Shown here one piece after another: positions 3,597-64,000 of a stretch of DNA of 64,000 bases; positions within the stretch are counted from its first letter, which is position 1, and each line of letters opens with the position of its first letter. The notes beneath the pieces are model-generated. The model worked only from the letters and a program-made list of their open reading frames with translations. It searched no databases and had not been told where the DNA came from. Position numbers and translations under genes: made by a program. The stretch comes from Plasmodium relictum. Taxonomy: Eukaryota; Apicomplexa; Aconoidasida; Haemosporida; Plasmodiidae. Location of the stretch: contig NC_041692.1 in the NCBI RefSeq assembly GCF_900005765.1, forward strand, positions 372,001 to 436,000. Direction: 5' to 3'.

Positions 3597-4262
3597 TATT
3601 ACTTGTAGTTTCTTTTTTTTTTTTTTTAACTTGTATTATATTTCATTTATAACTTATTTGCTTTTTATATAGCAACACATAATTTTTATACATTTGTATA
3701 TTGCATTCTGGGAAATATTAAATTTAAAACAAAAAGGGAAAAATATGAAATAGCCTAAACTTGAATAAATTTTAACAATACAATGGATTATATTTTTATT
3801 TTATCATAAGGATATTTTATTATAATAAATATATATATATTATGCTCATGTTTATAAATAATTAAATATATATAAAAATATAAGAATAAATATATACATA
3901 AAAAAAAAAAAAAAATACAATAAAAAAATATGTATATAAAAAAAGAAGAAAAAAAAAAAGTTATAATTTGTTATATCTTTTTTTTGAGTGTATTATTTTT
4001 TTTTGAAATTTATCATAAATATATGTAATTTATAAAGCTCCAAAATTATGATATTAAAATGAGTAGAATAAATTTTAAATTATTTAAAAATTTTATTCTT
4101 TGGTATATTTGTTAAATTTTGTAGAATAATGTAAATATGTCATTTGTAAAATTATACGAAAGTAAATCTTTTATAACATAATTTAATATATTAAAATGAA
4201 ATGAAAAAATTGCATTTTTTTAATTATCTTGAAAAGGAAATAATTTGAACTAAAAAAAAAAT
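3597..4262. other. Intergenic, divergent promoter region
   Basis: Separates the divergent mS35 and IF-2 genes. It holds A/T homopolymers and short TA runs only; no gene is seen. Confidence 0.6.
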
Positions 4263-39400: not shown

Positions 39401-39478
39401 CCATATCTGTATATGCATATTTATGTTTATATATGTGCAATTTTATCCAATACATTTTCTCTCTAAACGCTCTCTAAA
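36462..39478. other. Long divergent intergenic region
   Basis: 3.0 kb between divergent NEDD8 and the 12-residue-repeat gene. It contains A/T homopolymers and a TGCATGCA site. The ORFs at 37764-37988 and 38861-39182 are homopolymer artefacts. A less AT-rich patch near 37460-37560 gives no continuous reading frame or tRNA fold. Confidence 0.5.
38567..38574. promoter_or_regulatory. TGCATGCA site
   Basis: A perfect TGCATGCA octamer 0.9 kb upstream of the large repeat-protein gene. The sequence matches a known ApiAP2-family motif of Plasmodium; binding here is untested. Confidence 0.35.
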
Positions 39479-42400
39479 ATGAATGGAGAAAAAAATGAAA
39501 TAATTGTAGAGAGTAAAAATTTATTAGATGAGAAAATAAAAAAGAATAAATTAATTTTTAAACGTAAAAAAAGAAAAATAAATTACAAAATGGGATCACA
39601 AGAGAAAAAAAAAAAAAATTTTAAAAATAAGTTAAAGAGGATAAAAAATAAAAAAAAGAAAAAGTTAAAAAATCAAAATCTTGCTATGGAAAATCGTAAT
39701 TTAATAAACTATCTTTATTTAAACTCAAATAAAAATATAAACAATAACGAAGAAGATTCAAAAAGTCCAAGTATAACTTATGATGAAAAAAATATATCAA
39801 AATCATTTGTTACACAAGAACAATTTAATCAACAAGAAATAGTTAATAATGAAAAGGTTACTAATAAAAACTCAATGATCAAAGTAAACGATAATTTGAT
39901 ACAAGAAAATTCTAATGAAAATAAAGAATGTAATGCTTCAATAGAAAACACATTATGTAATAAAAATAATAAAAACAATGTACATACAGAAATACAAAAA
40001 GTTACTGATTTAATCTGTAAAAATGACTCTGAAGCCTTAAATACAACTGAGAAAAATGGAAATTCTTTTCTTAAAATGAATGAAGAAGATATAAATAAAA
40101 GCATACAAGAAAAAAAGAAAAATTGCAAAAGTAATTTTAATTTATTAAAACTAGAAAAGGAAAAAGATCAAAAAACAAACATATCTGAAGAAAAAAATGG
40201 GGAAAATGATAAAAATTTATCACTAAAATATAATTATACAAATGGAAAGAAAACAAATATCAACAATAGAAATAATGATAATTTTAAAAAAGAAGAAATA
40301 GGTGAATGCTTCACTAATAAATCTTTTTTAAAGAAAAAAGAAAGCTTTTTTGATATCATGGAAGATTTAAGAAGTAAATCAGATAATAATGAAGAAAAAA
40401 TAGAATCTTTTTTTAAAAGTGACCATAAGGATAATGATAATAGTAAGTCAAGTTTTGATGAAAATGAAAAAAAAAAATTAAAAGAAATAATGCAAAACGT
40501 ACCTTTAGATAAAATAGTTAGTGTTCTAGAAAAAATATCAAAAGAAGAATGCATACATATCTTGAATAGCATAGATGAGGAAAAAATCACTTTAATTATA
40601 GAAAAATTATCTATTGATCGTTTTAAAGAGCTGGTAAATTTTATAAAGGAAGAAAAAAAAAGGCGTTTTATTATAGAATACTTAAACGAAGAGAAATTAG
40701 TTAATTTGTTTTCTCCTTTTAAAAATTACAAGGAAATAACAAAATATTTTAACTTTTTATCAATAGAAAAAATTGATAATATAATAAAGTTGCTGGATCT
40801 AGATAATTATAAAAATTTTATTTTATTATTAGATCAAGATAAAATAGTAGAAGTTATAAATCATGTTTCTATTAATAATTCTTTAGGAATTTTATTAAAT
40901 TTACCCCAGAATAAATTATTATATATACTTGATCAAATAAAAGAAGAAATTGTTATAAAGCTAATAAACGCTATTCCATCCTGCAGGTTTTATTATATAA
41001 TAGAATGCTTACCAATAGAAAAAATTAGCTCTTTATCTAATAAAATTTCTTATGAAAAATTATATATTCTTCATAATTCTCTATCTCTTAAAAATATGCA
41101 TTTAATTACTAATAATTTATCCATAACTACAATCAATAGACTTATAAATGAATTACCTTTATATAAATCAATTAAAATTCTTAAAAGTTTGCCACCTAAA
41201 AAAATTGCTGATTCTATCAATCTAAATTGTTCGTTCAATTTTGTTGAAATATATAAATCCTTTAATTCAGATGAAATAATTGAGATAATGAAATATTTAA
41301 ATGATAAAAATATGGAGATATTGTTAAACGAATGTGAACCAACAAAAATTATCCACTACATTAATTATGTATCAGTAAATAAATTTATATCAATTGTTGA
41401 AAGACTACCGATAAATTTTCTAATAAAAATTATGAATGAGATATCTATTAAAAAACTCACGGAAATTTTTATACTACTTCCTGAAAATAAAATTTTGTCT
41501 AGCTTAAATAATTTATCGTTAAAAAATACAACTTATGTTTTAGAAAAGTTACCAACAAAAAAATTAATAAGCATTTTAATGAAAGAAGACAAAAAAGATA
41601 AAATATGGAAAGAAAGACAGAAGATGTTAATCAACTTATTAAATGAAAATAATATAATTCTTATTTTAAATGAATTAAATGATAAAGAATATAATGTATT
41701 TTGTAAACATTTATCTACAAATAAAATAGAAAATATCATTAATATTTATAATGATTATAAAAAAGCTTCAATTTTAATTTTGAATTTGCCTATTAATAAA
41801 ATAATAGAAAATCTTCAAAGACTAGATGATGAAAAGTCAAATAATATAATGAAATATTTACCAAATTATATCAATGATAAAATTAAATCATGTTTGTCTG
41901 AGAACGAAATTAGCAAAATACAACATATATTTATTGTATGTACCTTATTAAGGCTAAAAGAAATTTTGGATAACCCTAATATAATAAAAAATGAAAAAAA
42001 TAATTTTTATAATTTTATAATAAAAAGAAAAATATATCAAATAATTAATAGTATAAATATGAAAAATTATCAAAAATTCTTAAACCATATTTCTTGCACA
42101 AAAATTATAGAAATGGAAAATGTCATTGATAATATAATGAGTAAAAATTTCTATAATGAAAATAATATAACAGATTATATTTTTATTTTTTTTAACTTAG
42201 ATCACAACATATATTATAGGGCATCTGTAAATACTAAATTGTTTCTTCAAGAATATAATGAAAAGGATTATTTTTTTAAAATAGATACCTTTTGTAATAG
42301 TAGTTGCAACAGAAATAACAAGTACAATTACTTTAAAATCACAAAAGAAGATAGTTTTAATTATAATACTATAAGAGAAGTTAACACTTCATTAAAAAAA

Positions 42401-45400
42401 TTTATATTATCTCATAAGGAAAAAAAGAAAATTACTACTAAAAAGGATTTAAGAAAATCTATAAATATAAAAATGAGAAATCATTTATATGTATTTTTAA
42501 TTCATTTAATTTCTTTAATAAAGAAACATATTGAAAAAACTGTCTTATTAAATAGGAAAAACTACTTATGCAATAAGGGAAAAGAAAATATGGAGAAAAA
42601 GATACTGAATGAATCTAATAAAAACTTTTCAAAAAAAAATAAATTAGTAGAATATAATCAAAACATCAATAATAATTACAATAATGATATAGATGTTAAT
42701 AATGATACTCCAAGCTTAAAAAGTGTGGTACACTATGAAAATGTGTATAATAAATTAATTTTTAATGAAGTAAAAAAGATAATGAAAAATATTTTTGGAA
42801 TTGTCAAAAAAATAAGTAGTATGGAAAACTCATCATTCATTATAAAAAATATATCAATTAAAAATATTATTAGTGGTAATATAACTCATTACAAAAATGA
42901 ACCAAATGAAAATGAAAATGAAAATTATAATAAGAAACATAAGGAAAATAAATTACTACCTTTATATGAAAATTGCGATAATAATCTTGAGGAAATAAAA
43001 AACAAAGATATTTGTAATTTTAAAGATAATCTTTTACATGAAAAACAGTGTATCGTTAGTAGTAAATCATTTGAATGTTTTGAAAAAAAAGAAATTTTAA
43101 AAAAAAAAAAAAAAAGTAAAAAAATAATAGTCAAAGAACTGAATAAAGTGAATACTTCAAATGATGAAGCAAAAGAATATAGAACAAGAGAACATAAAAT
43201 AAGCGAAATAGAAGAAATACAAGATAAGAAAAAAGATACTAAAAGACAAAAAATAGAAAAAATATATGACGATGGAATAGATTTTTATATTTTAGACAAT
43301 AATTTATTATTGCACAATAATAAAGAGCAATTAAAATATTTAAACAATGCATTAAAAAATGTTGCTTGTAGAGATATTGCTTTCTTAAAAAAATATAACT
43401 TAGAGGAATACATAAATAGTGAAAAAAATAAAACTAAAAAAGAAACAAGTTCTTGTAATCAAAAAATAATTACAACAAATGTTTACAATAAGAATAGAAA
43501 TAAATCTAGTATGAGTGAAAATTTAGATAAAATGTCTTGTAAAAAAAAGAAATTATATGAAAAGTCTTCTCATAAAGTAGCTTCTAAATGTTATAACATT
43601 CCCCCTAATATAAGTAATTCAGATTATTTAATGGTTGAAGATGATGCTTATCTTAATAATAAAAAAAATTTAGAAAACAAAAAACAGAAATTTTCAACTA
43701 ATAAAAATATAATAAATACATTCAATTCTATAAAGGAAAAAAGAAATATTTTTTGTTTAAAATTCTTATTTGTATTAAATGGTGTTCATTTAGAGCAATG
43801 TAGCAATATTACATTATGTTTAAATTTTTTTTTTTTAAAAAAAAAAATATTTTTTAATAAATATAAGCACCAAATATTAAGCAGCTCATTAAATATACAT
43901 ATTAATAAAAATGGATATGAAAAATTTATCAATATTTCTCCTAATCACAATGATGCTTTTTATTATATTAATTCCAATATTGTTTCATTAAGTATTGAAG
44001 ATAATGATACAATTAAAAACTTTGATTCAGTGGCAACTAAAGATTTCTTTACTAGAACATTTTTAAAAAAAAAAAGTTCCTTAAATTATGAGAATATCAA
44101 TATAATTAACAAAAATTCTACTGGTTTCAATTATTCTAGTCGAGTTAATTCAACTAACTTAAATGATAATAACACCAAATTAAATAAAGTAATTCATAAT
44201 GATTTAAACTCTAATTTTATTTTATTATGGAATTCTAAAGAAATTGGTTATATTATACTAGATTCATACAATTCTTTATATGTAAATATAAAAGATTCTT
44301 CTAGCCTTTTTTTTATAAATATACATAGAATTAATTATAACTTAAGTAGAACTATACCTTTGAAAGAAGGTAGTTTATTTTTTTTTAAAGACAGTAAAGA
44401 AAAAATAAGCTTTAGAAAAATAAAAACCATGTTTTTACGTATGCTAGATAAAAAAAACTCTAATTTTATTACAAAAAATACATTAAAGGAAAATGAAAGA
44501 GGAGTAGAACATCAAAATAATCATATAGGAGATAAATCTATTTTAAATGAAAATAAAAATTATTTAAATAAATGTAAAATTGATGCAAGTATAGATAATC
44601 TAAAAAAAGAAAAACTAGAATTTGAAAACAATTTAAAATGTGAAGAAAAAAATACATGTGAAAATGAAACGTATTTTGGTGACGAAAATACATATTTTAA
44701 TGATAACAATGGTGAATTAAATGAAATTCAAAATTATCCATATGAAGAGAATAACATAAAAAAAGAAATGAACCAAGAAAATGTAATGAATAAAAAAAAA
44801 GACTACCATAATATTATTAAAAATGTAGAAAAATTTGAAAACATTAATAAAAAAATTTTTGAAGAATATAATAATAAAGAAGTAAATCATATTGAATATG
44901 ATATTAGTGATAACAAATTATGCTTAAAAAATAAAAAATGTTTGGTTGTTAGTAATTTTAACAGTATACTTAAAGAAGAGAATAAAATGTTATTAGAAAA
45001 AGAAAAATTAATTAATAATCAAATAATAAAAGATAATAATTCAAATATGAAATCTCTTAGTTCATTAAATGAAAGTAAGAAAGAAAAAATAGAAGATACA
45101 AAAAATAATTACCTTAATAAAAATACTGAAGAAGAATTAAGTAAAGTTACAAATTTAAGCATTCGTCATAATAATTTTTCTGATAATCTTAGCTACACTG
45201 ATGATGAATTTAATATAATACTATATTTAGAAAAACGAAAAAAAAAAAGCGACGAAAAGACGTTAAAAAAAAAAAAAAATAGAAAAAATTTTACTTCATA
45301 TAATTTTAATGATAGCAAAATTTTAAAGTTAAAATTGTTATCTCTTATTGAAAATTCTTTATGTGATTATAGTGTTATAGTAAATGATATTATAAATGAA

Positions 45401-47668
45401 AAAAATAGTATAGAAAAAAAAAAGGGATATGATTATTATTCAACAAAAAACTTAGGAACTTACAATTTTTTAAGAGGCAATTTATCTTTTAATAATTCTT
45501 GTGAGAATTATGAAAAATCTTCTAATTTATTTTTGATTAAAAATAAATATGAAGAAAAATTAGCGATAAAGGATACAGAGAAAAATTCTAATAAGCAAAT
45601 TTTAATAAATCAAATAAACGACAATGCTTCTTTGAATAATGATAAGAAAATTCAAGTTATTGATGAAAAAAAAAATAACCGAAGACAAAATAAAAATAAA
45701 ATTCAATTAATTTGTAATAATAATAATAATAATAAAAATAATAATAATGATGGATTAACAAAAAATTTTAATAAAAGAGAGAAAATATTTCCCTTTAGGG
45801 ATGATTTAATAGATTTAGAAGACCTTCCTATGTGTGAAAATTCCATTAGTGTAGAAAGTTTAAAAAGCAGTGATAATTTTAATGAGGCAAAAGAAAAAAT
45901 ATCAGAATTAAAAAATGAAACATTGTATGATTCTGTAAATGATTCAGAGTATAAATCAATAAACAATACTACCAATTATTTCACAGATAAATCAGTTAAA
46001 AGTTCATTAAATAAGTCAGCTATAAATATAAAAAACAAAACATTAAACACAGCAAATATTATACAAGACACCCAAGAGAAAATGAAAAACATAAATAAAT
46101 CAGAAAAAATGTTAAATGTGTCAAATAATCACATAAATAAATCATTAAATGATTATAGAATTGAATCCTTTACAAAATTATTTTGTGAATCAGATAAATC
46201 TATTTATGACTCTATTAATGATTCTATAAGTAGCAATATTATGAACAAAAAAAAAAAAAGTAATATAATAAAAAAGAAAATAAGTAATTTATTTAAAGAC
46301 AAAAATTCGAACAATTCAGATATAAAATCGCATAAAATGGAAGATTTAAATTTTAATAATAAATATAAAGAAAATGAAACAAATCCATTATTCTTTAAGG
46401 ATACTAAAAAAAAATATATATCGAATGAGCAGAAGATAGATGTTTTTTCATTCATGAAATCTAACGAAGATTTAGATGAAAATAAAATGTTCAACTTAAA
46501 TGAGAAATTTATGAAACATAATAACGAGGAAATAAATTTTATTAAAAAAAAAGAAAATTGCTTAAGTAATTTTCCAAACTCTACTACAAAAAATTTATTA
46601 AATAATGAAGATGCTGTAAAAGAAAGTATTGGATTTTTAAATTTGCATTGTTTATTTGAAAGTAAACCAGAAAATTTTTATTTAATTAGTGAAGGATGTG
46701 CTAAAGCTAGTAATTATGTTAGTGATAAAATGCTTGTTCATACTAAATTGTATAAAGAAATTTTTCATATAAAAAGTGATGACATGCTTCCAGAAAAATC
46801 ATCTCTTGAAATTTCTAAATATTCTAATAAAAGTGAAATTCTCTGTCTACATAAAAAAAAAAAAATTTTATGTAACATTTGTGGAGATTTCCTGAAAAGA
46901 AATTTATTAAATGATCTTTTCTTTTTTAAAATATCTATAATTGATAAAAAAGTATTTTTTTTAAAGCATTTAACTATTAATATATCTTATGAAAGTCCAT
47001 TGATTAAAGTACATTTTACTGAAAAAGATTATATTAGATATTCCTTAGAAAAAAATTCTAACGAATATAAATTAAAAATTATAGCTATAAGCAGAAAAAA
47101 ATTGCACAAAAAATTCTCTTTATCAAAATCTAAATTTTTGAGAAAATGCTTAGAAATTGAATTAACAAACAATTTAGAAAAAATAAAAAAATTAAATCAA
47201 AGTTATATACCTAATGATTTTGAACAATCTACAATAGAAACAAATTTTAAAAATAATAAGGAACATATAATAACAAAGGAAAATTTATCTTATGAACAAA
47301 TGGAAAATGATTCAAAATTCTTTTCAAATTTAAATCAAGAGAATGGGTTTGGTTGTTATATATGTAATTCTTATGTGGCTGTTCTTAATTTTAGCATTCT
47401 TGATGACAAAAATAAAAAGTAAGTATTCACTGCATATCTATTTTACTTTATTACATTATATTTTTTATTTTTCTATTTATAAAAATAAATTTATATATAA
47501 AATATTATATCAAATATTTGGATTCTTATTTTTTAATTACTTATACTTCTATCTTTTTTTTATTATTTTTATATCTTTTATTTATTCACTTATTTTCCCT
47601 TTTATTACAGAAAATATGACGTGGAGAAATTTATTGTCCCTTCAATTTTATTGTGTACAAATGGCTAA
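39479..47668 (+). CDS. Giant protein with 12-residue-repeat alpha superhelix, unknown function
   Basis: Exon 1 39479-47418 and exon 2 47611-47668 (donor GTAAGT, acceptor TTACAG) give 2665 aa; the second exon adds a conserved-looking KYDVEKFIVPSILLCTNG ending. The first 335 residues are Lys/Asn/Glu-rich. Residues 341-794 are about 35 consecutive 12-residue units with pattern P/S-x-x-K-I/L-x-x-I-L-x-x-L (e.g. PIEKISSLSNKI, SVNKFISIVERL). This period matches the short-helix superhelix of the MgtE N-domain, though no transporter part is present. Between long low-complexity tracts, three further beta-rich folded parts appear near residues 1430-1550, 1580-1650 and 2460-2560; the first two might be C2-like. 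No signal peptide or membrane helix. It runs in the same direction as the formyltransferase. Function unknown; a protein-binding scaffold is likely. Confidence 0.85.
40499..41860 (+). repeat. Tandem 12-residue protein repeats (coding)
   Basis: About 35 units of 12 codons, occasionally 13, with one insert of about 20 codons near 41580-41640. Position 1 is Pro, Ser, Asp or Asn; position 4 is often Lys; positions 5, 8, 9 and 12 are hydrophobic. DNA identity between units is low, so the array is old and conserved at protein level rather than a recent slippage product. Confidence 0.85.
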
Positions 47669-48215
47669 TATTTTTAAGATAAAATTCTAGAAATATAAAA
47701 GTAAATAGAAAAAAATATTTTATTAAAATATAATATAGTATAGCAATACCTTTATTGTATTATAGGTCTCTTGTATAAACTGATATTATTGTAATTATTT
47801 TTTGTTGTATCCATTTTTTTTTTTTTATTGTCTGTTTTATTGAATTTTCTTGTATTTCTTTTTTTTTTTTTTTTTTTTACCTTTTTTATTTTATCTCAAA
47901 TAGTAAAAATTAAGTTTTATATTTTTATTTTTATATTTTTTTTTTTTCTACTTGTTAAAATACCAAAAGGTATATTATGTATAAATTGCCAATCCTTTTT
48001 TATATATTTCTGTATTTATGACACTTTATAAAAGAATTTAAAAAACATTTCAATAATACATCAATAATATTTTTAAAAAAATAAATCAAAACAATATAAA
48101 GAGGTTATGTAATTTTACAATAATTTTAAATAGAAAACATGAATATATAAAAAGTAGAGAGTAAAATCAAGGGACATTTTGTGATATTTTCAAATATAAA
48201 AAAAAGAAAAATATT
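47669..48215. other. Intergenic, tandem genes
   Basis: About 550 bases with strong T runs. The ORF at 47828-48031 is a Phe-rich artefact of poly-T. It presumably contains the promoter of the formyltransferase gene. Confidence 0.5.
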
Positions 48216-50057
48216 ATGAATATAATCAGTTCATATTTTTTACAAATATTTATTATAATATTTTTAAGAAGTTATGCTTACAAATTAGATTACATTAGAA
48301 AATTATATTTTAATAAAGAAAAATATTATTTTAAAAAATTTAATTTACTTATTAATCGAATTGATGTTAAAATATTATGTGATGATAAATTAAAACAGTA
48401 CAAGTTAAATGTTACCAAATTAAAGCTCAATGATTCATATATCTATTCTTTAAAAAATGAATCAGAAAAAAAAGTAAATAATTTTGGAGAAATAAAGGAA
48501 TGGAATAATGTCTTTGATAAAAATCAAAATTATGATAATTATATTTTGAGAAAAAAGATTAATAATATTATAAATATATTTAGTAAATTAAATAATACTA
48601 ACAAATATTTATTCTTTAAGGATGAAAACACCATAAATCTATACAATAAAAAAAAAAAAAATAATTTGAAAAAATATATATTAAATTTAACATGTATCTG
48701 GAATAACGTTATAAAATTATATTTAGAAAATATATATTTAGAAATAGTTAATATAATTGGAAAAACGTTAGGAAATAAAATATTTTATGTAGACATAAAA
48801 AAGGAATTAGATAAGAGGAAATATGCTATTATTGATATGCTATATGATATTTATAGAAAAAAGTACATTAATAACAAAAATATAAATTTATTATTTATTG
48901 GAAGCAACGAATTTAGCAATTTATGTTTTAAAATAATTTTATTAATAATCAAAAAATTAAGAAGTGATATAAAATTGGAAAATGTTATAACAAAAAGCCC
49001 TCAAAAAAAGGGAAGATATATGATTTTGCAAAGATCAGATATAGAAGAAGAAGCAAGAAAAAATAAAATAAGTGTTTTTTATTATGATAAAGTAAAAAAT
49101 GATATATATATTTTAAAAAATAAGATATTTGATCTTTGTATTTCTGTATCATTTGGTGAAATTTTTAATAATTATTTTTTTAGAACAATTAATTCTAATG
49201 TTTTTTCTTTACATCCAAGTTTACTACCGTTATATAAAGGAGCATCACCAATTCAGAGAAGTATATTAAATAATGAAAGTTTATTTGGCTATACAATATT
49301 TTTAACAAATTTAAATATTGATGCCGGTACTATTTTAATAAAAAAAGCTTTTTGTTTTGATAAAAATTTTAATTTTAATGACATCATCACCATTTTATTT
49401 ACAATAGGAATTATACACTTAATAAAAAACATATTTTTCTTATCAAATTATAAATTAAATCTAAATGAAACACCAAATAATACATATAGTTATTTTACTA
49501 CTCAAAATAATAGAAACGAATTTTGTGATTTTAATGATATTCTTAATATACCAGATAAAAAAAAGAATTCTTTCTCCTCTACTAATTTTAAATTAAGCAA
49601 TTTAAATACCACTTTTGAAAACACTGCCAACAAAAGCTCGTTTAAAGACAATAATTACGCCCCCAAAATAAAAAATGATGAAAAGTATATTTGTTTCTTT
49701 TGTTCAACATCTTTATATATTCATAATAAAGTAAGAAGCTTCATAAATTGGCCCAAAGCAGAGTGTTCTCTTTTTATATTTCAAAATAATAGATTTAAAG
49801 TAATAGATGTAAAATTAATTAAAACATCTTATGAATTAAATAGTGATTATAATTTTAGTTATTATTCTACTTTATATAATCATAAGTGTTTTGATAAAAT
49901 TCCACGCACATTTGTAATATGTGATAAAGAATCCTTAAATATTCAATGCAAAAATAATACCTTATTAAAAATTCATAAATTACAAAGGAGAAATAAAAAA
50001 ATTGTTAATGCTTTGGATTTTATTAATAGTATACATAAAAATGATCTATTATATTAA
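48216..50057 (+). CDS. Methionyl-tRNA formyltransferase, probably apicoplast
   Basis: Single exon, 613 aa, about twice the bacterial length (about 315). It formylates initiator Met-tRNA with 10-formyl-tetrahydrofolate. Residues 1-22 form a clear signal peptide (IFIIIFLRSYA end), followed by a Lys/Asn-rich transit-like region, the bipartite signal for the apicoplast. The catalytic core runs from LLFIGSNEFSNLCFK to the HPSLLPLYKGASPIQRS motif and INIDAG-like segment: His333 and Asp369 have exactly the 36-residue spacing of E. coli His110 and Asp146. The third catalytic residue, Asn two before the His, is Ser331 here. A C-terminal domain of FMT type follows (KVRSFINWPKAECSLF, FKVIDVKLI) after an Asn-rich insert. 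An inactive or unusual hydrolase-type formyl enzyme cannot be excluded. Confidence 0.88.
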   Translation: MNIISSYFLQIFIIIFLRSYAYKLDYIRKLYFNKEKYYFKKFNLLINRIDVKILCDDKLKQYKLNVTKLKLNDSYIYSLKNESEKKVNNFGEIKEWNNVFDKNQNYDNYILRKKINNIINIFSKLNNTNKYLFFKDENTINLYNKKKKNNLKKYILNLTCIWNNVIKLYLENIYLEIVNIIGKTLGNKIFYVDIKKELDKRKYAIIDMLYDIYRKKYINNKNINLLFIGSNEFSNLCFKIILLIIKKLRSDIKLENVITKSPQKKGRYMILQRSDIEEEARKNKISVFYYDKVKNDIYILKNKIFDLCISVSFGEIFNNYFFRTINSNVFSLHPSLLPLYKGASPIQRSILNNESLFGYTIFLTNLNIDAGTILIKKAFCFDKNFNFNDIITILFTIGIIHLIKNIFFLSNYKLNLNETPNNTYSYFTTQNNRNEFCDFNDILNIPDKKKNSFSSTNFKLSNLNTTFENTANKSSFKDNNYAPKIKNDEKYICFFCSTSLYIHNKVRSFINWPKAECSLFIFQNNRFKVIDVKLIKTSYELNSDYNFSYYSTLYNHKCFDKIPRTFVICDKESLNIQCKNNTLLKIHKLQRRNKKIVNALDFINSIHKNDLLY

Positions 50058-51717: not shown

Positions 51718-54048
51718 TCATACATCGTCTTTTAATTCATCTAATATACAAGAAGCAAAATAATTTAAATCTATTTTTTCTTTCATTTTCTTTTCACCAC
51801 CTTTTTCTATTTTTACAGGATTATTATTTAAGAATAAATTATTAAAGTTTACATCTATATTGGTTAGCCATTTTTTAATAATATTTATATTTTTTTCATT
51901 TTCCATCAAGATTGAATATCCAACTCTATTTCTTCTTCCTACTCTTCCACATAAATGAATGTATTCATTTACATTTTTTGGTTTATTACATAAAATAACG
52001 ATATCTAAATTATTTATGTGAAAACCTCGAATAGCGTCAAATGAACTTATAATAACAGGAAACTTATTTATAAATTTTTTTTCTTTTGTAGATATTTCTT
52101 TTAAATTTCTTATTTCTTCATAATTATTGCACAATTTTTTTAAGTGTTTATTATTTTCCTGTAAAGATATTTGTAATTTCTCATGTAATAATATACAAAA
52201 TATATTTTTTTCTTGTAAAAATTTTTTTATATTCATTAATGAGTAACCATTTTTAATTAGAATTAAAATTTTTTGTTGGCAAAAATGTTCTATTATTTTA
52301 TAAGATTCCTTTATTTTATTTTCAAATAATTCATCGTTTATCACATGATAAAAATGATAAATATTATTAGGAATTCTTATTTTTATTACATATTTTTGCA
52401 TTATGTTTTCATTATTTAAGTGCTTATTAAAATCCAAATTTTTAGAATAAGATTCTTCTATTTCACTAGTCACATTTTTTTCAAAAGTATTTCCTTCTTT
52501 TCTAAATTTTTCGTCATTTTCATTTAATTTTTTTTTTGTGTTTTCATCAAAATTAAAAGAATTTATTTTAATTAAATTATTTTCTTGGCTATTTATTGTT
52601 TGTAATGAACTGTTTTTTTCTCTTAATAAGTAAATTTTTTTTTTTGAATTACTTCTATTCAAACTTAATAACTTATATATTTTTCTATGCAGTTCCCTAT
52701 TTAAAGTACTAGAACACCCAATAAAAATTAAATTTTTTTTATTCATATACATTATTGTCTCTAATATTAAATAAGCATTTTTCTTTTTTATATTATTTTT
52801 TGTTTTTATAAGATTGTTTTTTTTTAATGACGGAAAGAGCTTATCTATTTCATCAAAAAATATGTATTTAATACTTTGTAAAAACTCTTTTAAACTCTCT
52901 TTTTCCAAATTTAAAATGTAATTTTTAAAGCTAATAGGAGTTCCTATAAGAAAAAGAGCATTCTTTAACTTATTAATTTCTTTTAACATATCATTTTCTG
53001 TAAGTTCCTCATTTACCTTTATATTATTATTTCCATTTAATCTAATGTTTTCATTTAATTTCCATTTGTTTTTCTCTTTTTCTTCATTTGTATTAGTTGT
53101 ATTTTTTTTCATTTCTTTTAAAGAACTAGAAATTTCATTATGCTTAATATTTTCAACTTTTAAATTATCGTTCTCTTTTTGTTTTTTTCCCTTTTTTTTA
53201 TTATTCTCTTTTCTTTGTTTGTTTTTATCAACTTGTTTATCAATAAATAATTTAATTATTTCTTTATTTTTATTATTTATTAGAGATAATATATTTTGAG
53301 AAATTTGAACACATAACTCTTTTGAAGGGCATAAGATGAGAATTTTTTCATTTTTTAACTTAATATTAGATTTTTCTTCAATTAATAATTCTTTATTTTC
53401 TCTAATATCAAAAATTTCTGAGCACTTTTCACTAAATGGTATATACATAAGTTTATTTCTATACAGATATTTTTCGTACTTATTCCTATCAAATATATTA
53501 TCTTTAAAATGCTCCTTATTCATATATTTCTCTCTTTCTATATCTTCATCAAAAATAAATTCACATTTATAATAAAATTTTAAAATAAAATAAAATATGC
53601 ATATAGTTGTTTTTCCACTAGATGTTTTAGCATGTAATAGCATATTATTATTTCTTTCTATTAAGTATATAAAATTTTTTTGAAGATCACTTAAATATTT
53701 TATTTCTTTTACATTTTTATTAAAATAATCTTTTATATAATTTATTTTATTTTCATCATTTGTACCATTTTCAATAAAAACAATGTTCTTATTTTCATTT
53801 CTATACTTTTTTTCTAAGAGAGATATATTATTAGTATTTCTATCATTTTTCAATAAATTTTTTTCTTTTTTAATATTAATTTTTCTAATAAAAAAAAAAT
53901 TGTCCTTTTTACTACTTTCCCATTTTTTCGCATATAAAATACTTAAATAAAATAAAAAAACTATATAAAGATAATACTTTTTAGTAATATTAAGATTAAA
54001 TATAAAAAGTTTTGACAAAAAAAAAAATTCAATTAAATAATTTTCCAT
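51718..54048 (-). CDS. DEAD-box-type RNA helicase with N-terminal signal segment
   Basis: Single exon, 776 aa. ATP-dependent RNA helicase core: Q-motif-like YLSDLQKNFI before motif I AKTSSGKT (140-147); motif Ia PSKEL (241-245); IGTP as motif Ib (368-371); motif II DEID (399-402); GCSSTLN in place of SAT motif III (about 444-450); and motif VI HLCGRVGRRNRVG (698-710), where DEAD-box enzymes have HRxGRxGR. A 90-residue Lys/Asn-rich insert sits between Ia and Ib. Residues 8-40 hold two hydrophobic stretches ending LSILYAKKW, a signal peptide or anchor, so an apicoplast location is plausible. The DEID box and altered motif VI mark a divergent member. The promoter lies in the short gap to the next gene upstream on the same strand. 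Confidence 0.85.
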   Translation of the reverse strand: MENYLIEFFFLSKLFIFNLNITKKYYLYIVFLFYLSILYAKKWESSKKDNFFFIRKINIKKEKNLLKNDRNTNNISLLEKKYRNENKNIVFIENGTNDENKINYIKDYFNKNVKEIKYLSDLQKNFIYLIERNNNMLLHAKTSSGKTTICIFYFILKFYYKCEFIFDEDIEREKYMNKEHFKDNIFDRNKYEKYLYRNKLMYIPFSEKCSEIFDIRENKELLIEEKSNIKLKNEKILILCPSKELCVQISQNILSLINNKNKEIIKLFIDKQVDKNKQRKENNKKKGKKQKENDNLKVENIKHNEISSSLKEMKKNTTNTNEEKEKNKWKLNENIRLNGNNNIKVNEELTENDMLKEINKLKNALFLIGTPISFKNYILNLEKESLKEFLQSIKYIFFDEIDKLFPSLKKNNLIKTKNNIKKKNAYLILETIMYMNKKNLIFIGCSSTLNRELHRKIYKLLSLNRSNSKKKIYLLREKNSSLQTINSQENNLIKINSFNFDENTKKKLNENDEKFRKEGNTFEKNVTSEIEESYSKNLDFNKHLNNENIMQKYVIKIRIPNNIYHFYHVINDELFENKIKESYKIIEHFCQQKILILIKNGYSLMNIKKFLQEKNIFCILLHEKLQISLQENNKHLKKLCNNYEEIRNLKEISTKEKKFINKFPVIISSFDAIRGFHINNLDIVILCNKPKNVNEYIHLCGRVGRRNRVGYSILMENEKNINIIKKWLTNIDVNFNNLFLNNNPVKIEKGGEKKMKEKIDLNYFASCILDELKDDV

Positions 54049-54707
54049 AAAAATATATTTATATAAATATATACATATTAATTTTTTTAACTTTTCAATG
54101 AAAATTAAAAATATTATATGTTATTTAATTCATTAATTACAATATTACAACAAAAAATAAAAAACTTGCTAAAGTATAAAAAAAATTTATAAAAATGGCA
54201 TATAAAATTATATATTTTATGTATGAACTAAGATTAAATAATATTTTTTTATTTTTATATTTTTTTTTTTTTTTTTGAAAAGAAAATGTTTGTATTTTGT
54301 ATTAAACTAATTGAAAATAAGGATTGAATAGCTTTAAATAATTTCAAAAAATTATAGCACAAACATATATTAGCATACATTCCGAATATAGAAAATAAGA
54401 ATAAAATTTTTAAAATAATAAAAAAATAAAAACAAAACAGACAATAAATTATATAAAATTAAAAAAATTTTTTTTTTTTATTATTTATAAGCAAAAGTTC
54501 TATGAAAGTTTTATTGTTTTTTAAAGGGTTACAGTAACTTAAATTGCTACATTTATTTTTCTATTTTCTTTAAATTTTTATTATATTTATTAAAAATAAA
54601 AAACGAAGGTAAATTAAATTAAATCATCTTTTTTTAGGAATATTGTTTTAAATAAAATTTTAATATTATTTTTATAATTGGAATTATCATATTTTTATTT
54701 TTTTTAT
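54049..54707. other. Intergenic, tandem genes
   Basis: About 660 bases between same-strand genes, AT-rich with T runs. No gene; the promoter of the helicase is presumed here. Confidence 0.5.
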
Positions 54708-57700
54708 TCATGAATCTGATTTAATTTGTTTTAAGAATTGTTTTAAAGATAATATTCTATTTTTATTTTCAATAATAATCTCTTCATTTGTACTTATTTG
54801 ATTATTTAGTTTTTCTAAATGTGCCACAGATGAACTTAGTGATTTACTTCTGAATTTCCACTGTAATTCAATTTTGCGTAAATCCAACTGAAATGTATAG
54901 AATTTTTCACTTAATTTTTCACTTGTATTTTTCAGTACTATAGACAAATCTGTTTTATTTTTTAATTGACATTTTAAATCTTCAAAAAACTGTAGCATAT
55001 TATAAGTTTCCATTTTTGCAAATTGTTTTATTTCTTCATTTAAATTATTCCACTGTTCATTACTTAATTGTGTTAATGTAAAGGAGGAATTATCCCTTTT
55101 TTTGTCGTGTATTTTTTTTTTTTTTCTATTTTTACTTTTTTTCTTTGTCAAAATAATATAAGTTGCAAATATTGGTGCAAAAAATGCATATATAAAAATA
55201 AAACGTATTAAAATTAAATAAGGTAAGATAATTAATAAGAAGTAAAAAATATTGAATTTTAAATAAATTTCAATATTAACAAAACCTAATAAAATTAAAA
55301 TAGAATAAATAAAATATTGCCGTGGTGTTAAGTCATTAAAATCATCAATTCCATAAAAATAAAAATTAAATATTGTAAAATTCACGTAGAAAAACAGTAA
55401 TAAAGCACTACTTTTCATTAATTGTTTTTTATTAGAATGTAATGCTTCATATAATATTTCCTTTTTAAAGTAATTAGAAAGGAAAATAAACTTATTTATA
55501 ATGGTTAAAAAAATAAACAAGTAAAAGACATTTATGAAATAAGAATTATAAGAAAATAAACTTAAATGAACATTAAAATAATTATCTATATCATTTTTAT
55601 TATTTATAATCCAACTGATATCTACTAATAAAACTAGCCAAAACACTACAATTAAAACATGTAAAGGAAAAATGATAAAATCTAAAATATTACTTTCGAG
55701 AATATATGTTAGGTAAATTTTTAATTTAAAATGTGAGTCAATTTCAATGATTTTTCGGTTTTTGTTATTCATAATAATATCATTATTATCATAAAAATTG
55801 TAATCATTCCAGTTATCCAAATTACTTATTTTTTCTAAATGTTCATTTTCCTTATTATTATTTAAGTTATCTATTTTGTTAATTTGAGCAAGTATATTTT
55901 TATTACATTCATTTGCAACTAAAATACACACCTTATAAAAGCTCATAAAATCTTTAAAAAAAAATAAGTAGATAATTAAAAATAAACTTAAAAGTAATGT
56001 GAAAAATAGAATATTAATCCCAACACCTTTAAAATAAGAATAATTAAAAGATTTAAAAAATAGATGACCAAAAAATATATTTTTTGATATATATCCACTA
56101 GAGGTAAAAAAGAAATGTATGTTAATTAAAACGCTATAATCATTTTCCTTATCAAATAAAATAAAAGAAATTTCAATTTTTTTAATTGAATCGTCAATCA
56201 TTTGTGTGATATCATTTATAGTATTTATTAATTTGCCTTTTTCATTTTCTATATTTATTTTGCATTTTTTTCGTTTATTATCACAAATAAATTTCCCATT
56301 TGTAATTTTAATTTGTTCTCTAGAAGATATGCTTATATTTATTCCTTTCCTATACTTAAAATAAAATATATCCTTCCACATATATGTATCATGGAATTTT
56401 GTATCATTTTCTTGTATATTATAACCATTTTGTAAAAAAGAAATAAAACATGTTTTTAGCCACTGTATAACGTCACTTTTATCTTCTATTTTATTGAAAT
56501 TAAATTCTTTTTTTTTAATATTTATATTAATATTTTTCTCTATGTGATAGAATTGCATACTAGTAAATAAATCATTACCTGGTAAATAGCTTATATTTTC
56601 TATCTGATATTTTAATAGTTTTTCACTTTCACCAATTTTTTTATAATCATTAATAATGAATAACAAGATAAATATCAACAAAAAAGAATACAAATATATA
56701 TAAAAAATTAATTTCCCACTAAATTTCTTGCCATTATAATTTTTTAAAATATGCTTTTTCTCTTTATAAGAAAAAGGTAAAAAACTTTTATTCATGTTTA
56801 AAAAATAATCTAAAATTTTTTCTATATTGAAAATTTTTTTTTCTATATTTTTTTCATAATACATAACCTGATCGTTTTTTGAGTTTTTTCTATCATCTAT
56901 TAAATCCTTTAAGTTTACTCCTTCGTTTATGTCATCAACATTTATTTCACAAATATCAGAACTTTCTGATGATTCTAGACTACTTTTCTCTAAGTTTTCG
57001 TCACTATTCGTATCTGAGTTTTCATATATATTTTCTAAATTTTTATTATTCTGATCACTTAAATGTTCATCTTTATCTATTAAGTGACGTTTTCTTTTGC
57101 TATCTTCATCGGAGCTTCCTACTATATATGTGCTACTTTTTTCATTAACTTTATTTGTTGTATTATTTTCTCTTTCTATATGGTCTTTTTTTTTTTTTTT
57201 TTTTATTTCATTTTTAATGTCTTCTTTCTCATCTAAATTATAATCATAATTCATATCGTGTAAAAATTTATCAAAAAATACTCCTTTTTTTTCTTTTTTA
57301 CATTTTTTTTTTTTCCCCTCTCTTAATAACTTACTATATAGATACATAAATGATTTATATATTTTTTTATTTCTTTTAATGAAAGATTTAATAGCTAAAA
57401 AAAATATGAAAGAAAAACTTATAGTGACAATAAAAAAAAGAATAGGAATTGTATAAAAGTAAGATAAAATGTTTTCTTCACTTACAATGGAAGAAATATT
57501 GAAGCCTTGAAAATTTGCAAAAATAATACATACATTAAAAATAAAAACATATAGCATACTAGAACTAACATTTTCTGATATATCAAAAAGTTTATGACAG
57601 AATACAGAAAAAATAGCTAAACATCCAAATATAATTATTAAAATAATAAAAAAAGGATACAAAAAATCTTTTCTTATATTTTTCTCAACGTCACTATATT

Positions 57701-58086
57701 TTTTCACTAGAAGACCAAAATGTTTTACGAAAACAATACAAGATAAAGCAAAAGTTATTGCTGTTACACTAATAAAAATATTTTTTATTATTTCTATATA
57801 TGATATAGTTAAATGCATATCATGTAAGAAATATGCAATTCTATCTTCTGTAATTTGAGAATACAATTTATTTATTATATACTTCCCATTTTTGTATTCT
57901 AAATTTAAATTAGGTAATCTAGAATGAGACAGAAGATATACGGCTAATGCTATGAAATTAATAATAATAGCAACTATAAAAAAATTATATCAAAATAAAA
58001 AAGAAAAAAATTTATATTACATATTAATATTTTTAAATTAAACAATTTTAAAATATACAAATTTATTACTTTTATATATAGTGATA

Positions 58087-58134
<48 letters not shown>

Positions 58135-59246
58135 TACATAATTTTTTTTAATTAATTACCTATGAGAAAAAAATTGGTACAATATGATTTAACGTACAAT
58201 TTGAAACCAACTAATATCATTTTTCTAATATTTATTGTAATATATATTAAAAATAGCATAAAAAATATAGGTAAGGAAATAAGAAAATAAATATTCAATT
58301 TATTATATATAGCAGATGAAGTTACTATTTCTTTATATGTTTTTGTGTTAGGCAAAAAAGAAAATTTTAAAGCATTATAAGAAATTATATTTAATAAAGG
58401 ATTAAATAATAAAAAATCTACAGTAACAGAAGCTATATTATAATTAGTTAATATAACAGCTGGTATAAAGTAAGGATAATTCTCTGTGTAAAAGCTTCCT
58501 TGAGTAAGTTTTTCTTGAATTTTATTGTAATCTTTCTCACATATTATTTGATATAATCCTCCTATTTTTTTATATGATAAATCTTTAGAAAAATTATATT
58601 TCCATCTTTTATCAAAATAAATAGAACTAAAATTTTGTACATTTTCTATGTCAGTCAAAAATGAATTATCAGAATATATTTCATATAATTTTTTATATTT
58701 GTAAATATTATTTGATATATCTTCTTTTTTTTTATATAATCTCATTGTTATTCTCCAGCAATTACCAAATAAAATGTTATTATTTAAAAAATTTTCTTTA
58801 GAAGCTTTTTCAGCAAATACATTTTTTATCCATGAGGCTAATTCAAATTTATTACTTATATTTTTAAAGACCGTATAATCTTTTTTTTTTGGTTCGTAAG
58901 AAAAATCATCATTTATTTTTCTTATGTTATCACTTAAGGATTTATAAAAGGATTCAGAATATGTTTTTGATTCATTCAAGTTATTATATATATAATTTTG
59001 AAATTTTCTAATTTTTATTACATTTGTAGAAGAACAAAGAACAAAAAACAAAACAATAATTAAGATTATGTCAAGATTTATTTTTATTAATCTTTTTCCA
59101 TCTCGTATTTTTTCTCTTAATAAAAATATTTCAGATAATTCATTTTTTTTTTTTTCTTTTTCTGTATATTTAAATAGAGCATCAGAATACACATTTAGAA
59201 ATGTTAAATTATCTTCATTATATGTCTTTTTTTTATTCATAGTCAT
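54708..59246 (-). CDS. Tandem polycystin-like (PKD/TRP) membrane protein
   Basis: Exons 58160-59246 and 54708-57973 join (G plus TT gives Val363; donor GTAATT, acceptor TTATAG) into 1450 aa. The apparent TTG start at 57866 is internal. First half: TM1 (57-74), a luminal domain (130-305) with WIKNVF, IGGLYQIICE, then YPYFIPAVILTNYNIASVTV, matching the polycystin extracellular-domain end (GGYY-LDL, then TRVVFIDFSVYNANINL). TM2 (317-340), TM3 (363-378), TM4 (421-445), TM5 (468-488), a pore-like loop with NFQGF, and TM6 (535-556) follow. After a charged 200-residue linker a second TM1-luminal-TM2-6 set occurs (from about 765), ending with a coiled coil. Together this gives a 12-helix duplicated cation-channel architecture. 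Channel function is inference; pore residues are not canonical. Confidence 0.65.
58090..58131. repeat. (AT)n microsatellite in intron
   Basis: 42 bases of pure alternating AT just inside the 5' end of the intron of the polycystin-like gene. Confidence 0.95.
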
Positions 59247-60359: not shown

Positions 60360-63300
60360 TTAATCTGAATTTGTGAACTCATTAGGGCATGTCAGAAACT
60401 TTGGATTAGTTACAATTATATTCGATAGGAAATCAATATTTTTTTTCAAATCCTTTTTATAAATATTTGAAAACTCCTTTGGTAAATTATCACCAAAAAA
60501 AAAATTCTTCTTGTTATTTAAAAATTTGGTTAAATGTAAAATATTATTTTCTTCATTATTTAATAAATATTGTATATATTCTGAGAATTTATCATTATCC
60601 TTAATATTACATAATGATTTTACACGAAATAAAAGAAGCTGTTTTTGTAGAGGTGTTAGAAAAATTCTAGTTAAATCTATTAATATAAGTAATTGTAAAT
60701 GATCACAAGTACTTTTCATTACATTATAAAACAGAATATCAAACCATTTACTAGGATTTAGTAAAGAATTAGAGTTATTTTCATCTAAGTTTTGTTTATT
60801 ATATTTATTACATTTTAAATAACAATATTTACATATATCTTCTATACTAAAATAAGTGTCATCAAATAATATTTTTTCAATAGATATAAGATCATATTCT
60901 TTTGTATAGCAACTTCTGTCAAAAAAAATTTTTTGTCTGTTTAAATGGAAATCACTAAGTTGAAAATTTAACATAGTATCTTTTTTTTTTTTATCATACA
61001 TATAATCATTATTATAAATTTCATTTATATAATTTACTTGATTATTAGCATTATAAATAATATTGTCTTCTAGTTTCTCATTTATGCTATCAAGTTCATA
61101 TATATGATTAAATAAAAGATCTTTATATATTCCTTTTTTCTTTAATGTTAATTCTTTAACAAAAGAAGAAGAATTCTTTGATAAAACTATTGCTAGTAAT
61201 TTTGAAGCTAACATAAGTTGATTATTAGTACTTAGAGAAACTATTTTTATTTTTAGTATTTCTCTTATAACTACAGAAATTCTTTCGATATTTTCTTCTA
61301 AAATATTCGTATTATTTTCTATACTTAATAAATCATCTTTAGTATAAAATTTTCCAAATATATCTTTTCCACATACTACTCTATAGTTTCCCTTACTTCT
61401 TAGTCTGTAATATAGTTTAGTATATAAATCAATAGCTTCTTTTCTATATTTGGCACTTTTTTCATTTAGATATTTTTCTTCGAATGTAATAAAATCAGTC
61501 AAAGAAATTTTTTTTTTAATATGAGCATTTGGAACGTTATCTAAAAATATATTAGGATAAATTAAATCTTTACAACCTACATGTTGCTTCATTTGAGCTA
61601 ATCGGAAAATTATATATAAAGTTAAATTATGAGTGGAACTAATTGAATTATCTAAAGAATTCAAACATTCTTCAGCTATTTCAATTGCTTTTTCAAAATT
61701 TCCACTATTTTTTAATGAGTCTGCTAATAAACATTTATTTTGTAAAATAATAAAATTAGGCATTTTTCCTTTTATGGAATATTGTAATGATAAACTGTAA
61801 AATATTATTGCTTTTTGAAACTGATTTAAAGATACTAAGGCATTTCCTAAAAGTATTAAGGAAGATATATATATCCAATGGGAAATAATATCATTTAAAG
61901 CAATTGAAATAATTTTATAGCATTCTTTAGAATAATACAATGTTTTTAGGAAATATTTTCTTTTTAATTGAATATAATCAATATTATCGAGTTTTTTATC
62001 CTCTATTTCTTCTTTTTCTTCCCCTGTATCATTAGTAGATATATTAATATCATTATGTTTTATATTATTAATTTTTTTTTCGTTATTTCTATTATATAGA
62101 CTTTTTTCCTTCATTTTATTATTATTATATTGATATACTATACTGTTTGCTTTATCATAGTAATAATTAGCTAATAATAGATTGCATAGTAAAGTGCTTA
62201 TATTATATTCTCCATCATAATATTTGCTGAACATAACAATTAGCTTATAAACTATTAGTGCGTCATCTATTTTCTCTTCTTTAACTTTACATTGTAAAAT
62301 TAAAATTAGTATGTCTCTTCTTAGAACACCTATATTTGGAATAGTATCATAAATATAATAACATACTTTTAAACACTTTTTTATATATCCATGTTCAAAG
62401 TGTAAGTATGCTAAATAAAGAAAATTTTTTGTTATTTCAAATATATTTTTATTAATATTAATATTTAATAATAATAAAATTGATTTTTTCGCTCTATAAT
62501 AATTTATACATACCATTTTCTCATTTAATATACAATATGGATGACAAGGAATATTATATTCATAAATAGAACTTTTTATTTTGCTACATGAACCAACAGT
62601 ACAAATATTATTTTTGTTTAAGAAATCATTTTCTTTCACATCAATTATATTTATTACATTTTCTTTTAAAATATTTTTTATTTTAAATTTTTCTTGAATT
62701 ATAATGTTAGAAAATAGCTTTTCTATTGTTTTATAAGACCACGTAGAATATTTAGGGAAACATATTTTGCTTTTAGGATAAAATAAAAAAAAGCTTGTTT
62801 TTTGATAATAACTTTTATTACTTCTGTCATATTTTTTATTAAAACTATGAAATTCACAATTATCTACATTATTATTATTTTCTGTTACTTTATTTTGTGA
62901 ATTTGTATGACAAGATATATTTTCATCTTTTATTCCTTCTAATAATGAATATATATTTTTAGTTTCTAATTTTTTCTCTTTATTATCTATGTGGTTTATT
63001 ATGTTGCCATTTTTGAATTTATCTATTGTTCTATTTTTCTTGTCTTCTTCTGTCTTATTTAAATAATTTAATGAATAGTTTCTATTATATATGTTTTCAT
63101 TATGAGTGTTTGCGTATTTTATATTTTGATTACAATCATTTATATGCTTTTTTTTATTAATATTTGGTTTAAAAATATTTTTTAGCTTATCAATATTGGG
63201 AAACAAATGATGATCTTTTATTGAACAAAAACTAGACATGTCATCCAATGTTAGAGGTAATTTAACTTTACAATCTTTTTTACATTCTCTTTTAAAAGAA

Positions 63301-64000
63301 ATACCAAAATGATATTCTATGCATATAAATAACCCATATATTTCAATTTCTTTTATATTGATATGATCTGTTAAGTTAATATGAAATTTTTTTACGCAAT
63401 GTGGTATTAGTATATTTTTCCAAAATTTTAAAGAGTCTGCACTACTAATATTTAAAGTTAAATTTATTAATCGGATTATGAATTCATGAGGTACTAACTC
63501 AGGAAAAAAAAACAAATAAGTGAAACATTTTTCGCAACAACAAATAAAACCATCATTCATATTTTTATTACAAGTATAATTATTATGAATAACATTATTA
63601 TTATTACCGTAATTATTTATACTATCACTTTTTTGTTCATCTTTTTTTAAAACTTTGATTATAAAAGAATGTATATGCTCGTAATAAATACATTTTAATG
63701 TTCTGCAAATAATTTCTCTACATATAATTTCCGAAAGAAATTCAGGTGATTTATTTTTATTTAGTAAATAACCTAAATTACATATGTTTATCCCATGAGA
63801 ATGATAAGTTTCTGTTATATCATAACTATCATTAAAATTTGTTATAAGATTTATAATTTTAGGTATAACATAATTATCAATATTATTAAGAGATTCTTTA
63901 CTAGCTTCTTTCAGGATATCTAAATTATTTACATTCTCTTCAAATTCATTATATTTTATATTAATTGCTAAGGTAGTGTTAGATAAAGGACGCTTGTAAT
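60360..64000 (-). CDS. TPR-like helical-repeat protein, 5'-truncated
   Basis: The frame ending at TAA 60360-60362 is open through the whole 3.64 kb to the window edge, so the true start lies outside and the Met codon near 63560 is internal; at least 1212 residues are visible. Two clusters of tetratricopeptide-like helix pairs stand out: one with FLYLAYLHFEHGYIKKCLKV, and a second with LILLGNALVSLNQFQKAIIF, then CLLADSLKNSGNFEKAIEIA and IIFRLAQMKQHVGC. TPRs form protein-binding superhelices. A Cys-rich patch (FICCCEKCF) lies upstream, and between the clusters are Asn-rich tracts. The C-terminal 150 residues are folded-looking (HLQLLILIDLTRIFLTPLQK). No membrane helix is certain. No orthologue is recognised by name. 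Confidence 0.75.
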   Translation of the reverse strand, partial: YKRPLSNTTLAINIKYNEFEENVNNLDILKEASKESLNNIDNYVIPKIINLITNFNDSYDITETYHSHGINICNLGYLLNKNKSPEFLSEIICREIICRTLKCIYYEHIHSFIIKVLKKDEQKSDSINNYGNNNNVIHNNYTCNKNMNDGFICCCEKCFTYLFFFPELVPHEFIIRLINLTLNISSADSLKFWKNILIPHCVKKFHINLTDHINIKEIEIYGLFICIEYHFGISFKRECKKDCKVKLPLTLDDMSSFCSIKDHHLFPNIDKLKNIFKPNINKKKHINDCNQNIKYANTHNENIYNRNYSLNYLNKTEEDKKNRTIDKFKNGNIINHIDNKEKKLETKNIYSLLEGIKDENISCHTNSQNKVTENNNNVDNCEFHSFNKKYDRSNKSYYQKTSFFLFYPKSKICFPKYSTWSYKTIEKLFSNIIIQEKFKIKNILKENVINIIDVKENDFLNKNNICTVGSCSKIKSSIYEYNIPCHPYCILNEKMVCINYYRAKKSILLLLNININKNIFEITKNFLYLAYLHFEHGYIKKCLKVCYYIYDTIPNIGVLRRDILILILQCKVKEEKIDDALIVYKLIVMFSKYYDGEYNISTLLCNLLLANYYYDKANSIVYQYNNNKMKEKSLYNRNNEKKINNIKHNDINISTNDTGEEKEEIEDKKLDNIDYIQLKRKYFLKTLYYSKECYKIISIALNDIISHWIYISSLILLGNALVSLNQFQKAIIFYSLSLQYSIKGKMPNFIILQNKCLLADSLKNSGNFEKAIEIAEECLNSLDNSISSTHNLTLYIIFRLAQMKQHVGCKDLIYPNIFLDNVPNAHIKKKISLTDFITFEEKYLNEKSAKYRKEAIDLYTKLYYRLRSKGNYRVVCGKDIFGKFYTKDDLLSIENNTNILEENIERISVVIREILKIKIVSLSTNNQLMLASKLLAIVLSKNSSSFVKELTLKKKGIYKDLLFNHIYELDSINEKLEDNIIYNANNQVNYINEIYNNDYMYDKKKKDTMLNFQLSDFHLNRQKIFFDRSCYTKEYDLISIEKILFDDTYFSIEDICKYCYLKCNKYNKQNLDENNSNSLLNPSKWFDILFYNVMKSTCDHLQLLILIDLTRIFLTPLQKQLLLFRVKSLCNIKDNDKFSEYIQYLLNNEENNILHLTKFLNNKKNFFFGDNLPKEFSNIYKKDLKKNIDFLSNIIVTNPKFLTCPNEFTNSD

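Follow-up and report, generated by a model that had tools for sequence, protein, structure and literature searches.

What does the long minus-strand gene at positions 54708-59246 of our 64,000-nucleotide window of Plasmodium relictum DNA (contig NC_041692.1, positions 372,001 to 436,000; all positions below are counted within this whole stretch) encode? Its product is catalogued as protein P0001, a 'conserved Plasmodium membrane protein, unknown function', and a first-pass annotation made from the letters alone had read it as a duplicated polycystin-like channel. We favor, at a probability of about 70%, a two-repeat polycystin-type (TRPP-like) cation channel whose chains would pair into one A-B-A-B pore, A and B being the N- and C-terminal repeats. 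What is shown directly is the gene model, two six-helix blocks in hydropathy, a polycystin-like fold for the modeled block B, and conservation.

Gene model and conservation

The gene runs from 59246 to 54708 and consists of two exons (59246-58160 and 57973-54708) and one GT-AG intron (58159-57974):

58160-59246, minus strand: exon 1, with the start codon at 59246, encoding the N-terminus, the first transmembrane helix (TM1), the luminal domain and TM2 of repeat A; lies within the match to P0001
57974-58159, minus strand: GT-AG intron, containing an (AT)n run
54708-57973, minus strand: exon 2, encoding the remainder of repeat A, the linker, repeat B, the C-terminal helices and the stop

The splice and the species are both supported because the 1450-residue product is 100% identical over its full length to the catalogued P. 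relictum protein, and the gene limits and exon joining of the first-pass annotation are thereby borne out. The (AT)n run in the single intron is long, spanning 58090-58131.

A protein search found 18 proteins, that of P. relictum and 17 others, all from Plasmodium or Hepatocystis and 41-100% identical, and a profile search returned the same 18. The gene is conserved in the listed Plasmodium species and Hepatocystis; the profile search, capped at 7996 candidates, did not extend to coccidia, to Cryptosporidium or to any further relative. Searches of the P. relictum assembly with each exon piece gave the self-match only among the best candidates scored, and remote paralogues are possible. Statements about orthologues below refer to an alignment (A1) of 15 members, from which P0010, P0012 and P0014 were excluded.

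Two six-helix blocks

Hydropathy was evaluated in 19-residue windows with a mean above 1.4. The expected plan of TM1, a large luminal region and five further helices agrees with the profile in both halves, each of which has six hydrophobic segments and one pore-helix-like segment (in brackets). The peaks of half A lie at residues 53-71, 319-337, 359-377, 427-445, 470-488, (497-515) and 538-556, and those of half B at 785-803, 1017-1035, 1128-1146, 1176-1194, 1220-1238 (weak, 1.55), (1249-1267) and 1272-1290. An extra weak segment in half A, 263-289 (up to 1.58), is the polycystin-motif strand itself. Segments 1 and 2 of each block are spaced by ~230-270 residues, and there is therefore space for a luminal domain. 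The polycystin (TRPP) trait of six helices with a pore helix between S5 and S6 is thus present by hydropathy in both halves, and is modeled in repeat B.

59034-59090, minus strand: TM1 of repeat A, residues 53-71, from hydropathy

The C-terminal repeat

The AlphaFold2 (AF2) model of repeat B matches the PKD2 fold over model residues 41-582, comprising TM1, a TOP-like domain, S2-S6 and the pore helix. The TOP/polycystin luminal domain that TRPP channels carry between S1 and S2 is present in this repeat by fold, and on this model the polycystin-type identity of the second half is well supported.

55125-56720, minus strand: repeat B, TM1 to S6, residues 781-1312, from the AF2 model aligned to PKD2
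56439-56516, minus strand: motif in the first helix of luminal domain B (FNKIEDKSDVIQWLK, residues 849-874), matching residues 121-146 of repeat A
55737-55919, minus strand: S2-S3 insert of repeat B, variable in length and Asn-rich in P. relictum, residues 1048-1108, from alignment A1
55257-55325, minus strand: pore helix and filter region of repeat B, residues 1246-1268, ILLGFVNIEIY, with AF2 helices at 512-524 and 530-533 in model numbering

The N-terminal repeat and its likeness to repeat B

Repeat A carries a polycystin-like motif, SVTVDFLLFNPLLNIISYNALKFSFLPN (residues 273-300), in the expected place of its luminal region; its AF2 model is unusable. The pattern that the first-pass annotation had assigned to each half is thus present in half A, but half B has only a weaker equivalent, KIEISFILFDKENDYSVLINIHFFFTSSGYI. 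The prediction of two polycystin-like halves, with a TOP domain to be found by structure prediction, holds by fold for half B, whereas for half A it is likely but unproven.

58293-59027, minus strand: luminal (TOP-like) domain of repeat A, residues 74-318, placed between TM1 and TM2, with a motif common to repeat B; fold unconfirmed
58809-58886, minus strand: motif in the first helix of luminal domain A (FKNIxxKFxLxSWIK, residues 121-146), matching residues 849-874 of repeat B
58350-58427, minus strand: polycystin-like motif in repeat A (VDFLLFNPLLN...FSFLP, residues 274-299), site of the best local PKD2 match (non-significant)
57486-57548, minus strand: pore segment of repeat A, residues 505-525, FANFQGFNISSI, inside which the best local transmembrane match to PKD2 starts (non-significant)

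The two luminal domains have in common, at the same position, the motif F-x-x-[IL]-x-x-K-x-[DE]-[LVI]-x-x-W-[IL]-K, with small deviations in some orthologues. Profile scores were compared with column shuffles in blocks of 15, which preserve local composition, and the B profiles were built without P0008 and P0017, whose gene models lack stretches. The luminal A-to-B score of 26.6 was matched by 0/100 and 2/300 of these controls. A stretch of human PKD2, NFKTLSSMEDFWKF, resembles the first-helix motif, and the best luminal match of block B falls there, though at an ordinary score. For block A, the best local PKD2 matches, likewise non-significant, are the polycystin motif and the segment from filter to S6. 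Block A is likely of the same, polycystin-like kind as block B.

Pore and filter

Neither repeat has a PKD2-type L-G-D filter in any of the 15 orthologues, the register in A being taken from a non-significant alignment. In block B the filter pattern is [LSI]G[FLM]: at the position of the PKD2 filter Asp, directly after the invariant G1259, 15/15 orthologues have F, L or M. The corresponding pattern in block A is FQ[GRM], within an aligned segment N-F-Q-[GRM] (same register) in which N516, F517 and Q518 are invariant in 15/15. Since no acidic filter ring is expected, weak selectivity would be predicted. Polycystin-1-type members likewise deviate from L-G-D, and the filter may not define the family.

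It is possible, if on balance doubtful, that the C-terminal half alone forms a working polycystin pore, with the N-terminal half as a regulatory domain of six helices that is degenerate or unrelated, much as polycystin-1 relates to polycystin-2. Such an arrangement is compatible with a duplicated origin, and the unconfirmed fold of block A and its filter, which reads NFQG, NFQR or NFQM and is not TRP-like, would fit it. However, A and B have the same helix plan and a luminal motif in common, and a dead pore need not keep N516, F517 and Q518 in every orthologue.

Points against a polycystin pair

Several results weigh against reading the protein as two polycystin repeats. The AF2 model of block B reaches a predicted local distance difference test score (pLDDT) of only 60, with TM-scores of ~0.3-0.5 and a root-mean-square deviation of 8.8 to PKD2, while that of block A is poor (pLDDT 38.1, pTM 0.26). 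Neither repeat has the PKD2 filter Asp, so a conducting pore is not assured.

Sequence comparison with PKD2 is also unremarkable. The PKD2 profile was shallow, built from 22 of the best 120 of 1845 human-PKD2 matches (67-100% identical); the named rows among these 120 are vertebrates, and some rows are nameless. The luminal B score to PKD2 is ordinary, being reached by 172/300 shuffles. Block A to PKD2 is non-significant, its score being reached by 56/400 (luminal) and 36/400 (transmembrane) shuffles, and score and register together by 25/400 and 12/400. Agreement in register alone is weak evidence, because 144/400 shuffles of luminal A place their best match within 15 of the real register. 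The transmembrane part of B matches PKD2 out of register, at a score reached by 10/100 shuffles.

Sequence matching between the two transmembrane parts, A and B, fails as well (37/100 shuffles, out of register), and the duplication therefore rests on the common helix plan and one luminal motif. The alignment of the two halves that had been proposed as a check thus succeeds for that motif but fails for the transmembrane parts. Whole-half local hhalign of A to B was weak as well (P 0.012, against 0.12 and 0.09 with one half reversed). Each half scored better against its own reversal (0.0011 and 0.00022), and because self-reversals outscored A to B we distrusted this statistic and used block shuffles instead.

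Finally, Pfam scans gave no polycystin match (PF20519 or PF08016) with the exon pieces (E <= 10), the 15 aligned members (E <= 1) or P0010, P0012 and P0014 (E <= 10). The first-pass annotation had named the lack of any PKD/TRP hit as telling against it, and at the level of these sequence profiles this is what was found. We therefore write 'polycystin-like' and not 'a polycystin', bearing in mind that a Pfam match is a means of detection and not a defining trait of polycystins. In UniRef, however, P0010 and P0012 (P. vivax) bear the name 'Polycystin domain-contai...'. A PF08016 search of the P. relictum genome gave no match, nor did 14 control genomes, and is hence uninformative.

Searches of PDB sequences with each exon piece had no match, and the sole match of the 15-member profile there was a chance coiled-coil one (E 1.8). 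Fold searches with the block A model gave 14-3-3, STAT and other helices, which also count against the polycystin reading at face value but are void given the poor model.

Linker and C-terminus

56826-57365, minus strand: charged inter-repeat linker, residues 566-745, from composition; of variable length over 15 orthologues
54957-55079, minus strand: long C-terminal helix lacking a heptad period, residues 1328-1368, from the AF2 model and periodicity
54720-54953, minus strand: coiled-coil-like C-terminal helices that show a heptad period, residues 1370-1447, from the AF2 model and periodicity

The linker, described at first as Ser/Glu-rich, is indeed charged but not specially rich in Ser (S+T 11%, D+E 22%, K+R 22% in P. 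relictum), and the span matching residues 562-745 varies from 167 to 297 residues across the 15 orthologues. A predicted C-terminal coiled coil was examined by permutation in five overlapping windows and two periods (3.5 and 3.6). Residues 1370-1447 have a 3.5-residue hydrophobic period (p 0.0002; p 0.12 for period 3.6) and are therefore coiled-coil-like, as anticipated, but residues 1328-1368 lack it (p 0.47) and fit 3.6 (p 0.007).

Perhaps a cut in the linker splits the single chain, in which case a heteromer of two six-helix proteins would be the working unit. For TgTRPPL-2 of Toxoplasma gondii, a native band of ~115 kDa and one of ~150 kDa with a 39 kDa C-terminal tag are reported, two pieces that the authors sum to the full length plus tag (PMC8216714). 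This evidence comes from TgTRPPL-2 and not from the Plasmodium protein, and we think such a cut unlikely here; it would in any case be compatible with a two-repeat polycystin-type channel.

Proposed architecture

In the two-repeat channel that we favor, each repeat would comprise TM1, a luminal TOP-like domain and then S2-S6 with a pore helix, leaving the N-terminus, the linker and the C-terminal coiled coil on the cytosolic side. By analogy with two-pore channels, two chains may form one pore of pseudo-fourfold symmetry with A-B-A-B alternation, beneath a luminal crown of TOP domains, and the coiled coil possibly aids the pairing. Such a pore would most likely pass cations non-selectively, Ca2+ included, across an internal or surface membrane. 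We infer the polycystin fold of block A, the dimer, its conductance and its location.

The Ca2+-moving channels of malaria parasites are largely an open question, and a two-repeat architecture would guide expression of the protein, the stoichiometry to be expected and the choice of residues to test. A fused polycystin pair would also be a natural test of pore sharing by unlike polycystin subunits.

The gene in the published record

Three Plasmodium accessions, XP_001349872, XP_002262030 and XP_001617062, are probably this gene, judging by accession order. They were listed as TrpML/TrpP homologues, a single one for each of three species, with 14, 14 and 12 predicted helices, and were found only through a T. 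gondii homologue (Prole and Taylor, 2011; PMC3194816). These 12-14 helices fit a 12-helix protein with two pore helices, and the passages seen on these entries leave repeats unmentioned.

PF3D7_1313500 of P. falciparum has since been proposed as the target of Calxinin and a putative TRP-ML/Ca2+ channel (Gupta et al., 2022; PMC9319510). It is the orthologue of the P. relictum gene, because P0016 (1740 residues, named for a gorilla-clade parasite, in a cluster of 11) carries 8/8 of the residues named there at the exact numbers; P0013, the other falciparum-like relative, is numbered differently and agrees at 1/8. The choice of target was computational, backed by Ca2+ imaging of the drug effect, and no resistant line was obtained. 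That paper names the protein TRP-ML and docks the drug to it; the words polycystin, two-pore, tandem and repeat are absent from its main text, where 'duplicat' occurs once, of an assay. A mucolipin-type (TRPML) channel, as that name implies, seems to us unlikely. The fold match appears closer to TRPP than to TRPML, and a defined two-repeat polycystin-like architecture would argue for shifting the working name towards TRPP.

An iron RNA-sequencing study lists PF3D7_1313500 as 'TRP-ML', its transcript level being altered (PMC11578967), and the protein also stands in a table of a saliva-marker study with the value 209.1, apparently kDa, and the code G, apparently gametocyte (PMC6441545). The main text of an updated P. 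falciparum transporter list has no entry for it (PMC9263188). That list does give 'PF3D7_1331500, putative calcium channel (Gupta et al., 2022)', maybe transposed from PF3D7_1313500 or drawn from another Gupta paper.

The first-pass annotation regarded TRP channels as not established in Plasmodium, which is half right: this gene was predicted to be one in 2022, and probably in 2011, and the relevant part of a review from 2022 describes both expression and function of the homologues as uncharacterized. In the sections seen of the papers predicting a TRP channel, there is no report of channel activity for this product, and no description of a duplicated polycystin in Plasmodium was found among the titles and abstract openings listed. 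The gene is thus already on record as a TRP candidate, and what is new is the proposed duplicated polycystin-like architecture, the apparently closer fold match to TRPP than to TRPML, and the absence of a PKD2-type filter Asp from both blocks.

Neighboring frames

Other frames in the window include a 2651-residue open frame with two stretches strongly matching Pfam MgtE_N, the cytosolic domain of magnesium transporters (E 2.9e-26), which looks unusual in so long a Plasmodium protein. Among the frames listed here, the IF-2-like GTPase, the E1 dehydrogenase component and the formyl transferase are of organellar type:

39467-47422, plus strand: open frame with MgtE_N
4254-7520, plus strand: IF-2-like GTPase
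15237-16550, plus strand: E1 dehydrogenase component
48165-50057, plus strand: formyl transferase
51718-54120, minus strand: DEAD-box helicase frame adjoining the channel gene; contains low-complexity inserts and, close to the N-terminus, a hydrophobic stretch
60360-63998, minus strand: frame that continues beyond the window; matches TPR and, weakly, eIF3_p135

Comparison with known systems

A close parallel is PKD2 (polycystin-2/TRPP2), whose plan of TM1, TOP-like domain, S2-S6 and pore helix is shared by the repeat B model. PKD2, too, has a C-terminal coiled coil. However, each PKD2 chain holds a single repeat, and its filter is LGD; the P. relictum protein appears to have two, whose filter regions read [LSI]G[FLM] (B) and FQ[GRM] (A). 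Two-pore channels have two six-helix channel repeats per chain, the plan proposed here, and form dimers with four pore domains, but they lack a luminal TOP domain and belong to a different family.

Among apicomplexan proteins, TgTRPPL-2 (TgGT1_310560; 2191 residues, 14 predicted helices, HHpred match to PC2) is reported by its authors to be a non-selective, Ca2+-conducting cation channel (PMC8216714). As published, it resembles our protein in being TRPP-like and many-helix, and differs in being longer and likely cleaved; the main text of that report does not contain the words tandem, two-pore, dimer or tetramer (PMC8216714). As a lead only, its pieces adding up to full length would fit a cut between two repeats. 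It is tempting to speculate, tentatively, that there is an apicomplexan class of fused double polycystins with an A-B-A-B pore lacking an acidic filter ring, the chain being cut in the linker in some species. If so, the linker cut would also account for the two ~115-120 kDa pieces reported for TgTRPPL-2, and the fused double polycystin would be a genetic fusion of the animal polycystin-1/polycystin-2 heteromer.
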